A stretch of 40,403 nucleotides of DNA, taken from Acidobacteriota bacterium. GTDB taxonomy: Bacteria; Acidobacteriota; G020349885. Of the stretch, positions 33,882 through 40,403 are shown piece by piece. Position numbers and translations under genes: made by a program. The stretch covers positions 1,869,836-1,910,238 of the forward strand of contig CP070701.1 in assembly GCA_020349885.1 (NCBI GenBank), written 5' to 3'. Positions within the stretch are counted from its first letter, which is position 1. Every line of letters starts with the position of its first letter. Under the pieces are notes generated by a model that saw nothing but the letters and a program-made list of their open reading frames with translations, was not told the origin of the DNA and searched no databases.

Positions 33882-36158
33882 ATGGGAAAGAGAAGCACGA
33901 AAAAGCTTGCGCGGGCCGCCCGCCCGGGCGCTCCGGCCAAGGCACCCAAGCCCGGACGGGTCCGGACACCGTCGGGAGAAGCACCGCCGAAAGAGAGACT
34001 CGGGCGGTGGGCTCCCCTCGTTCTTGTGTTACTGCCTCTCCTCATCTACGCCAATTCCTTACCCAACGCTTTCCACTATGACGACATCCACAGCCTTGTG
34101 GACAATCCCCACATCCGGAAGCTCGAAGACATCCCCTCTTTCTTCACCAGCGTCCAAACCACCAGCCTCCGCACCGACAAGGGCCACTACCGCCCCGTCC
34201 TCTTTTCGACCTACGCGTTAAGCTATGCCCTGGGAGAATACGACCCCAGGATGTTCCGGTTGTTCAACCTTGTCTTTCACGTCCTGAACGGCCTGTTGGT
34301 CTTTGCCGTGTTCCGGCGTCTTTTCGGAAACACGGCGGCGGCGTTTTTCGGGGCGCTTTTGTTTGCCGTTCATCCTCTGAACACCGAGAGCATCAACTAC
34401 ATCAGCTGCCGCTCGAACGTGCTGGCGACGACGTTTTACCTAGCGAGCGTGTGGTTGTTCCTGGGATACTCGGGAAGCGGCACGGAACGGCGGCGGACGG
34501 CTCTCTACGCGTGCTCGCTTGGCTGCTTTGTGCTGGGGCTTTTGACCAAAGAAATCGTGATTGCCCTTCCCGCCATCCTGATGCTTTTGGATATGTTGAT
34601 TCTTGTTCCCGACGCGAAGCCCTTTGCTTATAAGGCTCTGTTTCGCCGTCACGCGGCGTACTGGATGATTGCGGGGCTTCATCTTTTTCTGATTTTCGCG
34701 GTCGACCTCAAGCCCGTGTACGAAAGACGCGACGTCCTTTCCAACCTCATCATCCAGACCAAGGCGATGGTGTTTTACCTGCGGCTTTTGGTGTTTCCAC
34801 GGGGGCTGAGCATCTCCCACGGCTTTGATATGGAGGGGGTGATGAGCGCGGCGTTTTGGGCTTCGCTGTTTGTCATCGGCGGCATCCTGTTCCTGGCCTG
34901 GAAGCTGCGCGGGCGCTGGGGCCTCCTGAGCTTCGCCATCCTGTGGTACTTCGTCACGCTGCTTCCGACCTCCAGCATCCTTCCTTTGACCATCCCGGTG
35001 AACGAGCACCGGACCTATCTTCCGGCGGTGGGGTTCGTGGTGACCGTAGCGTTCCTGCTCGGACTCATCACGACGAAGTCGGAAGAGGCGCACACCCGTC
35101 TCCAGCCGGCTCCGGCCAGCCCACGACACATCGGGGCAAGCAGCGGGCAGGCCCCAACGCTTGGGCGCCGCTGGCAAGCTCTTTCGAAGTTCGTCGTGCC
35201 GTTCTTTGCGGTCGTCGTGGGAATTTTTTCCGTCGCGGTCTTCGCGCGGAATCAAGCCTGGAAGACGCCCATCACCATATGGAAGGACGCCGTGAAGAAG
35301 TATCCGTCCAATGCCCACGCGTACGAGGCCCTGGGCGTTGTATACGGCAATCTGGGACGTTGGACCGAATCGATTGAAGCCTGCAAACAGGCGATACGGC
35401 TCAGACCAGGTTACGCCGAGGCGCACCTCAACCTGGGCTTCGCCTACGGTAAGTTAGGCCGCTACGCCGAAGAGGTCGAAGCCTACAAGCAGGCGATACG
35501 TTTGAAACCAGACTTGGCCGAGGCGCACTACAACCTGGGCAGTGCCTACGGCAACCTGGGACGTTGGGCCGAAGTGATCGAAGCCTGCAAACAGGCGCTA
35601 CGGCTCAGACCTGGCTATGCCGAGGCGCACCTCAACCTGGGCTTCGCCTACGGCAAGATAGACCGTTACGCCGAAGAGGTCGAAGCCTACAAGCAGGCGA
35701 CACGGTTGAAACCAGACCTGGCCGAGGCGCACTACAACCTGGGTAACGCTTACGTCAAGTTAGGCCGTCACGCCGAAGCGATCGAGGCTTTCAAGCAGAC
35801 GGTACGGTTGAAACCAGACCTGGCCGAGGCGTACTACAACCTGGGCAGTGCCTACGGCAACCTTGGACGTTGGGCCGAAATGATCGAAGCCTGCAAACAG
35901 GCGCTACGGCTCAGACCAGGTTACGCCGAGGCGCACCTCAACCTGGGCTTCGCCTACGGCAAGTTAGGCCGTTACGCCGAAGAGGTTGAAGCCTACAAGC
36001 AGGCGATACGGCTCAGACCAGGTTATGCCGAAGCGCACTACAACCTGGGTATCGCTTACTCGAAATTAAATCGTCGCGATGACGCCCTCGAAGAATACAA
36101 GATTTTGAAGGAGCTGGACGAGGAAAGAGCCGACAAATTGTTTGATTTGATTTACTAA
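33882..36158 (+). CDS. TMTC/DUF1736-like GT-C membrane protein with eight TPRs (array gene 1)
   Basis: The 758-aa protein has a basic N-terminal tail, about 12 membrane segments (residues about 45-465) and a C-terminal TPR domain. Family-typical motifs are NAFHYDDIHSLVDNPHIRKL (acidic pair in the first loop, as in GT-C glycosyltransferases), HYRPVLFSTYALSYALG, HPLNTESINYISCRSN, LLTKEI and NEHRTYLPAVG. The eukaryotic TMTC relatives are protein O-mannosyltransferases; bacterial roles are unproven. The TPRs (about 471-745) are near-identical units such as AEAHLNLGFAYGKLGRYAEE. The ATG at 33882 matches the two paralogs; the open frame upstream is only leader DNA. No strong ribosome binding site is present. 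Confidence 0.82.
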   Translation: MGKRSTKKLARAARPGAPAKAPKPGRVRTPSGEAPPKERLGRWAPLVLVLLPLLIYANSLPNAFHYDDIHSLVDNPHIRKLEDIPSFFTSVQTTSLRTDKGHYRPVLFSTYALSYALGEYDPRMFRLFNLVFHVLNGLLVFAVFRRLFGNTAAAFFGALLFAVHPLNTESINYISCRSNVLATTFYLASVWLFLGYSGSGTERRRTALYACSLGCFVLGLLTKEIVIALPAILMLLDMLILVPDAKPFAYKALFRRHAAYWMIAGLHLFLIFAVDLKPVYERRDVLSNLIIQTKAMVFYLRLLVFPRGLSISHGFDMEGVMSAAFWASLFVIGGILFLAWKLRGRWGLLSFAILWYFVTLLPTSSILPLTIPVNEHRTYLPAVGFVVTVAFLLGLITTKSEEAHTRLQPAPASPRHIGASSGQAPTLGRRWQALSKFVVPFFAVVVGIFSVAVFARNQAWKTPITIWKDAVKKYPSNAHAYEALGVVYGNLGRWTESIEACKQAIRLRPGYAEAHLNLGFAYGKLGRYAEEVEAYKQAIRLKPDLAEAHYNLGSAYGNLGRWAEVIEACKQALRLRPGYAEAHLNLGFAYGKIDRYAEEVEAYKQATRLKPDLAEAHYNLGNAYVKLGRHAEAIEAFKQTVRLKPDLAEAYYNLGSAYGNLGRWAEMIEACKQALRLRPGYAEAHLNLGFAYGKLGRYAEEVEAYKQAIRLRPGYAEAHYNLGIAYSKLNRRDDALEEYKILKELDEERADKLFDLIY
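35310..36090 (+). repeat. Recently amplified 102/204-bp TPR coding repeats
   Basis: Eight 34-residue units are encoded by nearly identical 102-bp DNA. Units alternate between an EACKQA type (GNLGRW...) and an EAYKQA type (GKLGRY...), giving a 204-bp higher-order period. Two of the 204-bp blocks differ by only a few bases, implying recent duplication or gene conversion. Confidence 0.85.
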
Positions 36159-36356: not shown

Positions 36357-38552
36357 ATGGGAAAGAAAAAACGGAAAAAGCTTGCGCGGGCCGACCGTCC
36401 GTCCGGAACGGGCGCTCCGGCCAAGGCGCCCAAGCTCGGGCGGTGGGCCCCCCTCGTTCTTGTGGTCCTGCCTCTCCTCATCTACGCCAATTCCCTGAAT
36501 AACGCTTTCCACTACGACGATTTCCACAGCCTTGTGGACAATCCCCACATCCGGAAGCTCGAAAACATCCCCTCTTTTTTCACCAGCGCCCGAACCACCA
36601 GCATCCACGCCGAGAGGGGCCACTACCGCCCCGTCCTCTTTTCGACCTACGCGCTAAGCTATGCCCTCGGCGGCTACGATTACGATCCCACGGTCTTCCG
36701 CCTTGCGAACCTCATCCTTCACATCCTGAACGGCCTTTTGCTCTTTGCGGTGTTTCGGCGGGTGTCCGGAAACACGGCGGTGGCGTTCTATGCGGCGCTT
36801 TTGTTTGCCGTTCATCCTCTGAACACCGAGAGCGTCAACTACATCAGCTGTCGCTCGAACGTTCTGGCCACGACGTTTTACTTGGCCGGCGTGGGGCTGT
36901 TTGTGGGATACTCGGGAAGCGCCCCGACGCGGCGGCGGACGGCTTTCTATGCGGGTTCGCTTGGCTGCTTTGGGCTGGGGCTTTTGACCAAGGAAATCGT
37001 GATTACCCTTCCCGCCATTTTGATGCTCTTGGATATCTTGATTCTCAGTCCCCGACCCGACGGCGCCGGGGGCGGTGCCAAAATCTCGCTTGCGCCCCAG
37101 ACAAGCTTGTCGGGGCAGGGAGCAAGCTTCGACGTCAAGACTCTATTTCGCCGTCACCTGGCGTTCTGGATGGTTGCGGGATTTTACCTTTTTCTGATTT
37201 TTGCGGTCGGCCTCAAGCCCATGTACGAACGGCACGGCGTCCTTTACAACCTCCTTGTCCAGACCAAGGCGATGGCATTTTACTTGCGGCTTTTGGTGTT
37301 TCCCCGGGGCTTGAGCGTCGCCCACGGCTTTGACATGGAGAGTACGCTGAGCGCGGCATTTTGGATTTCGCTGTTTATCATCGGCGGCAGCCTGTTCCTG
37401 ACCTGGAGGCTGCGCAGGCGCTGCGGCCTCCTCAGCTTCGCCATCCTGTGGTATTTCATCGCGCTGCTTCCGACCTCCAGCGTCATTGCCTTGCACATCC
37501 CCGTGAACGAGCACCGGACCTATCTTCCGGGGGTGGGGTTCGCGGTGGCCGTAGCGTTCTTGTTCGGGCTCATCACGACGAAGTCGAAAGAGACGCGCGC
37601 CCGTCTCCGGCCGGCCCCGACGCTCGGGCGTCTCGGGCAGGCTCTTTCGAAGCTCGCCGTGCCGCTCTTTGCGGTCGTTGTAGGAATCTTTTCCGTCGCG
37701 GTCTTTGCGCGGAATCAAACCTGGAAGACGGCCATTACCCTCTGGAAGGATGCCGCTAAGAAGTATCCCGACAACCCCCACGCGCACGAGACCCTGGGCC
37801 TGGAATACAGCAAGCTCGGAGATTTGGAAAAAGCGGAGCGGGAGTTTCTGCTCGCGGTTCGGCGCGGCGGGGTCAGTAAGGCGCTGGCGAAACCCTACAA
37901 CGAACTGGGCATAATTTACGCGAAGAGGAAAGAGTACGAAAGCGCCATCGAGCACTATACGCTTTCCGCCGAGCTGGATCCGCGCGCCATTGAGCCGCAC
38001 CTCAATCTCGGCATGCTTTACTCCCAACAGGGCCAGCATGAAAAGGCGCTGCCCTATTACGAGAAAGTCATCGCGCTGAACCCGCACCATGCCATTGCGC
38101 ACGCGGCCCTGGGCAACGTATACGGAAAAATCGGCAACCTGCAGCGGGCCGAGGAAGAGCTTCGGCTCGCTGCGCGATATGGAGATAGCAAAACGTTTGC
38201 CGAGTCCCACAACGGGCTGGGCATCATCTTCGCGACGAGGAATGAGTATGAAAACGCCATCAAGCATTTTACTTTGTCCATCAAGGCAGACGCGGATGCC
38301 ATTGGGCCATACCTCAATCTCGGCATGCTTTACTCCGAACTGGGCCAGCATGAAAAGGCGCTGCCCTATTATGAGAAAACCATCGCGCTAAATCCGAATG
38401 TGGAACGACCTTATCACGATCTTGTGCGAATCTATCTCGATCTTCGTGAGGCCGACAAAGCGAGCGGCGTCTTTCAGGAAATGAAAAAGCGCGGCTTTAA
38501 TCTTCCAGAAGATTTGCGGAAACACCTCGATGCCGCCATGAAGAGTCCGTGA
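36357..38552 (+). CDS. TMTC/DUF1736-like GT-C membrane protein with divergent TPR tail (array gene 2)
   Basis: The 731-aa paralog begins MGKKKRKKLARADRPSGTG and has the same membrane domain: NAFHYDDFHSLVDNPHIRKL, HPLNTESVNYISCRSN and NEHRTYLPGVG. It carries an extra palindromic segment at 37049-37127. The tail from about residue 465 is a different set of TPRs, with longer spacers (AEREFLLAVRRGGVSKALAK; ALPYYEKVIALNP), and ends RGFNLPEDLRKHLDAAMKSP. Membrane domain and tail therefore have separate histories. Likely a glycosyltransferase-fold protein of the inner membrane with a protein-binding tail outside; substrate unknown. Confidence 0.82.
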   Translation: MGKKKRKKLARADRPSGTGAPAKAPKLGRWAPLVLVVLPLLIYANSLNNAFHYDDFHSLVDNPHIRKLENIPSFFTSARTTSIHAERGHYRPVLFSTYALSYALGGYDYDPTVFRLANLILHILNGLLLFAVFRRVSGNTAVAFYAALLFAVHPLNTESVNYISCRSNVLATTFYLAGVGLFVGYSGSAPTRRRTAFYAGSLGCFGLGLLTKEIVITLPAILMLLDILILSPRPDGAGGGAKISLAPQTSLSGQGASFDVKTLFRRHLAFWMVAGFYLFLIFAVGLKPMYERHGVLYNLLVQTKAMAFYLRLLVFPRGLSVAHGFDMESTLSAAFWISLFIIGGSLFLTWRLRRRCGLLSFAILWYFIALLPTSSVIALHIPVNEHRTYLPGVGFAVAVAFLFGLITTKSKETRARLRPAPTLGRLGQALSKLAVPLFAVVVGIFSVAVFARNQTWKTAITLWKDAAKKYPDNPHAHETLGLEYSKLGDLEKAEREFLLAVRRGGVSKALAKPYNELGIIYAKRKEYESAIEHYTLSAELDPRAIEPHLNLGMLYSQQGQHEKALPYYEKVIALNPHHAIAHAALGNVYGKIGNLQRAEEELRLAARYGDSKTFAESHNGLGIIFATRNEYENAIKHFTLSIKADADAIGPYLNLGMLYSELGQHEKALPYYEKTIALNPNVERPYHDLVRIYLDLREADKASGVFQEMKKRGFNLPEDLRKHLDAAMKSP
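37049..37127 (+). repeat. Palindromic insertion inside array gene 2
   Basis: Between ILILSPR and the shared LFRRH segment, gene 2 has extra codons absent from genes 1 and 3. They contain the palindrome GCCCCAGACAAG/CTTGTCGGGGC (37094-37116), with outer GCTTGC/GCAAGC arms. The frame stays open across it. It lies in a loop between membrane segments. Confidence 0.7.
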
Positions 38553-38669: not shown

Positions 38670-40403
38670 ATGGGAAAGAAAAGACGGAAAAAGCTTGCGC
38701 GGGCCGCCCGTCCGTCCGGGACGGGCGCTCCGGCCAAAGCGCCCAAGCTCGGGCGGTGGGCTCCCCTCGTTCTTGTGCTACTGCCTCTCCTCATCTACGC
38801 CAATTCCCTGAATAACGCCTTCCACTACGACGATTTCCACAGCCTCGTCGACAATCCCCACGTCCGAGAGCTCAAGAACATCCCCTCTTTCTTCGCCAGC
38901 ACCCGAACCACCAGCCTCCGCGCCGAAAAGGGCCACTACCGCCCGGTGCTCTTTTCCACCTACGCGCTCAGCTACGCCCTCGGCGGCTACGACTACGACC
39001 CCAGGATGTTCCGGGTGTTCAACCTTGTCTTTCACATCCTTAACGGCCTGTTGGTCTTTGCCGTGTTCCGGTCCATCCTCCGTAGTCCCGCTTCGAGCGG
39101 GACGGAGGACGGGCGCCTTTTCGGAAACACGGCAGCGGCGTTCTTTGCGGCGCTTTTGTTTGCCGTTCATCCCCTGAACACCGAGAGCGTCAACTACATC
39201 AGCTGCCGCTCGAACGCGATGGCGGCGACGTTTTTCCTGGCCGGCGTGTGGCTGTTTGTGTGGTACTCGGGGAGCGCCCCGGCGCGGCGGCGGACGGCTC
39301 TCTACGCGGGCTCGCTCGGCTGCTTTGTGCTGGGGCTTTTGACCAAAGAAATAGTGATTACCCTTCCCGCCATCTTGGTGCTCTTGGACATCTTGGTTCT
39401 TAATCCCGGCGCGAGACCCTTAGCTTATAAGGCTCTGTTTCGCCGCCACGCGGCGTACTGGATGGTTGCGGCGCTTCATATTTTTCTGGTTTTCGCGGTT
39501 GGCCTCAAGCCCATGTACGAACCGCGCGGCGTCTTTTACAACCTTCTTATCCAGACCAAGGCTATGGCATTTTACTTGCGGCTCTTGGTGTTTCCGCGGG
39601 GCCTGAGCATCTCCCACGGCTTTGACATGGAGATGACGCTGAGCGCGGCGTTTTGGGTTTCGCTCTCTGTCATCGGCGGCATCCTGTTCCTGGCCTGGAA
39701 GCTGCGCGAGCGCTGGGGTCTTCTGAGTTTCGCCATCCTGTGGTATTTCATCACCCTGCTTCCGACCTCCAGCGTCCTTCCTTTGAACATCCCAGTGAAC
39801 GAGCACCGGACCTATCTTCCGGCGGTGGGGTTCGTGGTGGCCGTCGGGTTCTTGCTAGGGCTTATCACGACGAAGTCGCAAGAGGCGAGCGCCCGTCTCC
39901 GGTCGGCTCCGGCCAGCCCACGACACATGGGGGCAAGCGGCGGGCAGGCTCTTTCGAAGCTCGTCGTGCCGCTCTTTGCGGTCGTCATAGGAGTCTTTTC
40001 CGTCACGGCCTTTATGCGGAATCAAACCTGGAAGATGCCCACCACCATATGGGAGGACGCCGTGAAGACGTATCCCTACAACCACCACGCACACTACGGC
40101 CTGGGCAACGCCTACGGTAAGTTAGGCCGCTACGCCGAAGCGGTCGAAGCCTACAAGCAGTCAATACGGTTCGATCCGTATAATGCCGATACGCACTACA
40201 ACCTGGGCTTCGCCTACAGTAAGTTAGGCCGCAACGCCGAAGCGATTGAAGCTTTCAAGCAAGCGATACGGTTAAAACCGGACATGGCCGAGGCGCACAG
40301 CAACCTGGGCTTTGCCTACACTAAGTTAGACCGCCATGCCGAAGCGATTGAAGCCTACAAGCATGCGATACTGCTGAAGCCGGACTTGGCCAAGGCGCAC
40401 CTC
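38670..40403 (+). CDS. TMTC/DUF1736-like GT-C membrane protein, partial (array gene 3)
   Basis: The frame is open from the ATG at 38670 to the window edge (578 codons visible, no stop). It begins MGKKRRKKLARAARPSGTGA and repeats the family motifs NAFHYDDFHSLVDNPHVREL, HPLNTESVNYISCRSN and NEHRTYLPAVG. An in-frame 42-bp palindromic insertion interrupts the second membrane region. The TPR tail starts near residue 470 (HAHYGLGNAYGKLGRYAEAV) and resembles gene 1's type but with its own sequence. As in gene 1, an AlaSerProArgHis-type linker precedes the last membrane segment. Function as for the other copies. Confidence 0.82.
   Translation, partial: MGKKRRKKLARAARPSGTGAPAKAPKLGRWAPLVLVLLPLLIYANSLNNAFHYDDFHSLVDNPHVRELKNIPSFFASTRTTSLRAEKGHYRPVLFSTYALSYALGGYDYDPRMFRVFNLVFHILNGLLVFAVFRSILRSPASSGTEDGRLFGNTAAAFFAALLFAVHPLNTESVNYISCRSNAMAATFFLAGVWLFVWYSGSAPARRRTALYAGSLGCFVLGLLTKEIVITLPAILVLLDILVLNPGARPLAYKALFRRHAAYWMVAALHIFLVFAVGLKPMYEPRGVFYNLLIQTKAMAFYLRLLVFPRGLSISHGFDMEMTLSAAFWVSLSVIGGILFLAWKLRERWGLLSFAILWYFITLLPTSSVLPLNIPVNEHRTYLPAVGFVVAVGFLLGLITTKSQEASARLRSAPASPRHMGASGGQALSKLVVPLFAVVIGVFSVTAFMRNQTWKMPTTIWEDAVKTYPYNHHAHYGLGNAYGKLGRYAEAVEAYKQSIRFDPYNADTHYNLGFAYSKLGRNAEAIEAFKQAIRLKPDMAEAHSNLGFAYTKLDRHAEAIEAYKHAILLKPDLAKAHL
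39072..39113 (+). repeat. 42-bp in-frame palindromic insertion in array gene 3
   Basis: Genes 1 and 2 pass directly from FAVFRR to the GNT segment; gene 3 has 14 extra codons (SILRSPASSGTEDG). The DNA is a palindrome: CCATCCTCCGTAGTCCCGC (39073-39091), loop TTCGA, then GCGGGACGGAGGACGG (39097-39112), with a 3-nt bulge. Length is a multiple of three and no stop is created. Confidence 0.85.

Follow-up and report, generated by a model that had tools for sequence, protein, structure and literature searches.

A nested palindrome carried in frame by a membrane protein gene, and the low-copy dispersed family to which it probably belongs

The last of three adjacent paralogous genes in an Acidobacteriota genome carries within its reading frame a palindromic segment that its two neighbors lack, which raises the question of whether a repeat element has entered a protein or a variable stretch of the gene has simply grown. 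We analyzed the surrounding window, a 40,403-nt stretch of DNA (positions 1869836-1910238 of the one contig that makes up the 2.4 Mb genome), and followed the segment through the genome and beyond.

The segment in gene A3 and its paralogs

The three genes (A1, A2 and A3) encode paralogous multi-pass membrane proteins of the PMT/GT-C type with TPR tails, an annotation based on matches to TPR families and, in paralog P0003, to PMT_2. Codon alignment of A3 with A1 and A2 leaves a clean 42-nt gap with a boundary that slides by 2 bases (GG), in agreement with the initial annotation, which had described the segment as palindromic, stop-free, a multiple of three in length and absent from the first two genes (Table 1). 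The full sequence of 39072-39113 is TCCATCCTCCGTAGTCCCGCTTCGAGCGGGACGGAGGACGGG, partitioned as TCCATCCTCC-GTA-GTCCCGC-TTCGA-GCGGGAC-GGAGGACGGG, and in the frame of the gene it yields SILRSPASSGTEDG with no stop codon. Its core is a nested palindrome, with a 9-bp outer stem containing one A/C mismatch, a 3-nt bulge in the left arm, and an interior consisting of a 7-bp stem and the 5-nt loop TTCGA. The predicted fold is strong (-27.1 kcal/mol, z -4.3, equaled by 0 of 200 dinucleotide shuffles), yet many other 42-nt stretches of this GC-rich window fold as strongly, so fold strength alone is unconvincing; what raises the palindrome above chance is its recurrence as a repeated family rather than the strength of the hairpin. 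A target-site duplication, if present, is at most 2 nt (GG).

Table 1. Window coordinates of the host genes and of the parts of the insert
Feature	Position	Strand	Description and evidence
Paralog A1	33882..36158	+	empty site at ~34316/34317
Paralog A2	36357..38552	+	empty site at 36758/36759
Host gene A3	38670..40403	+	PMT/GT-C-like multi-pass membrane protein with TPR tail; runs beyond window end
42-nt insertion in frame within A3	39072..39113	+	encodes SILRSPASSGTEDG; codon alignment with five paralogs
Palindromic core, family member	39073..39112	+	56.1 bits to covariance model R1 (itself an R1 seed); fold z -4.3
Left outer arm CCATCCTCC	39073..39081	+	partner of 39104-39112, the third pair an A/C mismatch; conserved in 14 copies
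Left-side bulge GTA	39082..39084	+	GTA/GCA/TTA/GAA in most other copies (family alignment)
Inner hairpin GTCCCGC-TTCGA-GCGGGAC	39085..39103	+	varies among copies; GTAGC-ACG-GCTAC instead in paralog B2
Right outer arm GGAGGACGG	39104..39112	+	sequence and family alignment

The insertion had been taken as private to A3, a view that did not survive the discovery of a second three-paralog cluster (B1-B3) at contig positions 1080509-1086503, 0.8 Mb from the A cluster. B3 has the 42-base segment at the site of A3, B2 a 36-base version at the identical codon, and B1 none; as the tip of the B2 hairpin differs from that of A3, two tips are found at one site. The short form is seen in every homologous protein covering the site (22 out of 22, encoded in further genomes of the phylum and on two MAG contigs), which indicates that the segment is not ancestral but derived, gained in the source lineage.

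On a DNA tree of the six paralogs, filled (A3, B2, B3) and empty (A1, A2, B1) genes are intermixed and three changes are required. Similarity between the clusters also climbs near the site, with B3 and A2 93% identical over 150 bases downstream and 68% over the next 150; protein conservation may lie behind part of this rise. From the intermixing and the raised similarity together, we infer that the filled site crossed the paralog tree through recombination between the clusters, the alternative being repeated precise loss. In its fullest form, that alternative places the segment in the gene from which all six paralogs descend, with precise losses from A1, A2 and B1 and no gene conversion, a history favored by the presence of the segment in both clusters. 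However, the empty outgroups indicate that the paralog family itself gained the segment, and the tree would still need its three changes, making this a possible but somewhat unlikely course of events; as it concerns only later history, it does not contradict an initial insertion.

Two other palindromes were noted in these genes. A2 has a second in-frame palindromic insertion at 37082-37129 (GCTTGCGCCCCAGACAAGCTTGTCGGGGCAGGGAGCAAGC), paralog-specific, about 21 residues long and in a different loop, which was rejected as a family member when a BLAST search of the genome gave no second copy. In A3, a further imperfect palindrome with 19-nt arms lies in the basic N-terminal linker (38695-38737).

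A dispersed family with conserved outer arms

A hairpin scan was applied to a sample of twenty 20-kb stretches (400 kb) and was combined with whole-genome searches. Near the top of the scan ranked a near-identical palindrome, CCGTCCTCCTTAGTCCCGACGCAAGCGTCGGGACGGAGGATGG, between rho and lon (868892-868934). Searching by pattern added further copies. A covariance model built from seven copies (R1) and run across the whole genome recovered its seeds and produced independent non-seed matches at 52348 (E 8.6e-7), 198367, 863481, 437970 and 1027752, along with weaker ones, whereas a model built from 14 copies (R2) found no strong additional place, which sets this low-copy family at about 15 places in 2.4 Mb, with the general form CCRTCCTCCGYAG-(variable hairpin)-GGAGGAYGG. 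The search for further copies proposed in the initial annotation was therefore successful, although they do not closely match its full motif (CCTCCGT-TCCCGC-loop-GCGGGA-CGGAGG), as the outer arms are conserved and the inner hairpin is variable. The exact inner pattern TCCCGC-N5-GCGGGA is found at three places only in the genome; it would have suggested a unique palindrome, and the family is visible only through the outer arms.

In the alignment of 14 copies, the strongly conserved outer arms enclose an inner part that falls into size classes: GTCCCG..CGGGAC (the A3, B3, rho/lon, RodZ and PilM copies), GNAGC-NNN-GCTNC (B2, 52348 and others), and nearly no inner hairpin (the Ndk and 437970 copies). 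Across the 12 arm pairs, 92% of cells are standard pairs, compared with 43-70% in a slid alignment, and the arm covariation score was matched by 2 of 500 shuffles, a score that kinship among copies can inflate. Core lengths range from 28 to 45 bp, and 12 of the 14 (28, 34, 40 or 43 bp) leave a remainder of one on division by three, so that two added bases, as in A3, give multiples of three; with few copies, common size classes and several intergenic members, this pattern carries little weight and we do not rest on it. Usually, 4-6 of the six reading frames of a copy are open.

About half of the family places are within reading frames of unrelated genes, in three frame/strand combinations, and several of these copies are in frame, as the initial annotation had suggested checking. 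A RodZ-like protein (19356) has its copy in the linker between the HTH and C-terminal domains, while in MutL (1027752) the element encodes SSSASEGG in a loop of the C-terminal domain, exactly at the point where two MutL proteins of solved structure have 7-8 fewer residues. An in-frame copy in the opposite orientation is found at 1420541 in a PilM-like protein, a name that rests on our reading of the sequence since the protein has no Pfam match; the segment of about 40 residues is missing from nearly all of 14 homologs, one of which has an unrelated insert. Directly after this element, at 1420638, is a second, degenerate copy (CACGGAGGACGG) encoding NSTTEDG. At protein ends, the element encodes residues ahead of the conserved start of Ndk (863481) and the C-terminal tail of a bactofilin (2258349; a weak copy, 18.5-23 bits), both probably in frame, while the copy at 2162911 extends across the beginning of a sulfatase-like gene; all three may go untranslated or be no more than marginally genic, as the real starts and ends are uncertain.

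Intergenic copies are located in the rho/lon gap, beside atp genes and before pdxA, with many in short gaps adjoining genes. This placement, together with covarying arms that tolerate GU pairs, could be explained by a functional RNA or DNA hairpin under selection (an mRNA stabilizer, a terminator or a protein-binding site) with the in-gene copies as by-products, but the inner hairpin is not conserved, about half of the copies fall within coding frames of genes unrelated to one another, and no Rfam match was obtained for elements at the loci tested, a result that also led us to reject a known RNA family; we consider such a function quite improbable.

The relatives available for comparison are no closer than phylum level. 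Applied to a further 198 genomes from the phylum, R1 yielded three marginal, chance-like matches, in three genomes, which were judged to be chance on inspection, and R2 gave one stray match among 395, rejected as a single GC-rich stretch. Ordinary loop-length variation, by which a variable loop gained 14 residues and GC-rich DNA became palindromic by chance or hairpin-driven mutation with no mobile family involved, would suit an insert that sits in a loop, in paralogs whose other loops also differ in length and in a region where other 42-nt windows fold equally strongly, but it is largely refuted by the dispersed copies, the arm sequence returning with high model scores at unrelated sites both between and within genes while nearly missing from the 395 related genomes, and we hold it to be highly improbable.

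Other hairpins emerged from the sampled stretches. The strongest, 46 bp at contig position 1468874, is in what reads as coding sequence for the C-terminal region of a MurG-like protein, with no obvious insertion. Those at 750596 and 1827084 share ..TTTTACCCCGATGCGG..GTCGGGGCCGGCAA.. and, with one at 745388, possibly represent another dispersed repeat. A group of intergenic CCCCGA/TCGGGGC hairpins was rejected as a repeat class, with 14 found compared to 8-16 in Markov shuffles.

Probable origin and relation to known palindromic repeats

Recurrence at unrelated places, both between and within genes, and the empty site in outgroup homologs of the host gene make it likely, on sequence comparison, that the segment belongs to a dispersed nested-palindrome repeat of low copy number that behaves as a non-autonomous insertion element of the REP/RPE type. 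Counted against this reading are evidence drawn from paralogs and phylum-level homologs with no strain-level pair of filled and empty sites, the low copy number, and the position of several in-gene copies at protein ends.

The element would enter many places, and its ORF-friendly sequence combined with purifying selection would leave frame-keeping copies in loops, linkers and protein ends. For the six-gene family, a single entry may later have been shared or removed via recombination between the two clusters, which would explain a presence that crosses the paralog tree. More tentatively, the palindrome might be kept or re-made by arm-to-arm copying through template switching in replication, which would explain how A3 and B2 come to carry unlike hairpin tips at the same site; the tip change between A3/B3 and B2 suggests such copying or replacement by another copy. 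A search of the genome for Y1_Tnp (PF01797), covering the Y1 family only, gave no match while five control genomes were positive; the usual mover of REPs is thus missing, and we rejected mobilization by a resident Y1/RAYT enzyme.

The likeness to Rickettsia palindromic elements (RPE) drawn in the initial annotation holds for behavior but not for size. Like RPE and the coding palindromes of Wolbachia, the family is dispersed, between genes and in frame in conserved genes, with no transposase of its own known, and the outgroups are empty; unlike RPE, which are 105-146 bp (Ogata et al. 2000, reviewed in PMC2229807), it is 28-45 bp and low in copy number, and its genome, judged by its relatives, is outside Rickettsiales. 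Comparison with the short classes of RPE (RPE-4/6, of the CGTC type according to PMC3733652) was by description only.

Such behavior had also been thought undescribed outside Rickettsia, but intragenic GTAG/CGTC REPs, palindromes of 20-40 bp in several phyla with some in ORFs including DNA-repair genes (Di Nocera et al. 2013, PMC3733652), mean that in-frame palindromes are already on record elsewhere. The present family resembles them in being short and also found in ORFs, the DNA-repair gene here being MutL. In contrast to GTAG REPs, it has no terminal GTAG outside the stem (the GTAG of some copies is at the bulge or inner arm), no RAYT in the source genome, and only about 15 copies. CGTC REPs are defined by a terminal CGTC, an 8-9 bp stem beginning with AT, and a CCA tail, whereas CGTC in this family lies within the paired arm (CCGTCC/GGAYGG) and there is no AT start.

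Compared with the bacterial MITEs NEMIS, ERIC and RU, which measure about 100-200 bp and in several cases have target duplications (PMC2229807), the family is likewise small, non-autonomous, palindromic and able to fuse in frame to genes, and its 9-bp arms form terminal inverted repeats; it is shorter, at 28-45 bp, and shows no duplication beyond the possible GG. Our verdict is that this small family of coding palindromes is itself new but of a kind already known. As a very small, low-copy family, it joins the few known cases of repeat DNA tolerated inside proteins, and it occurs without the transposase usually blamed for such repeats (Y1/RAYT). Since a single genome has both filled and empty paralogs, and the same site two different tips, it is possible to ask directly how such palindromes originate and move.

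Copies on viral contigs

Near-identical 34-bp copies were found on two IMG/VR contigs. The 47-kb IMGVR_UViG_3300033141_005645 has three, and a 14.5-kb contig has one at 1508-1541, upstream of head and packaging genes; the latter, encoding terminase, portal and head proteins, is clearly a phage. Its copy, CCGTCCTCCGCAGTAGCTCTGCTACGGAGGATGG, differs by one base from the copy at 52348 in the genome, and a blastn search against phages gave no match. From the IMG/VR copies, the family exists beyond the source genome and can ride on phages. A bolder proposal, that the family is common to unrelated uncultured bacteria and phages and that tip-swapping regenerates the palindromes and spreads them through proteins without a dedicated transposase, seems to us doubtful.

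The three copies on IMGVR_UViG_3300033141_005645 share longer flanks (GCCNNCCATAGCTTYAC...AGCGRCGG) that are partly able to pair outside the core, which suggests that the palindrome grew in modules. The genomic copy at 437970 shows similar pairing outside its core.
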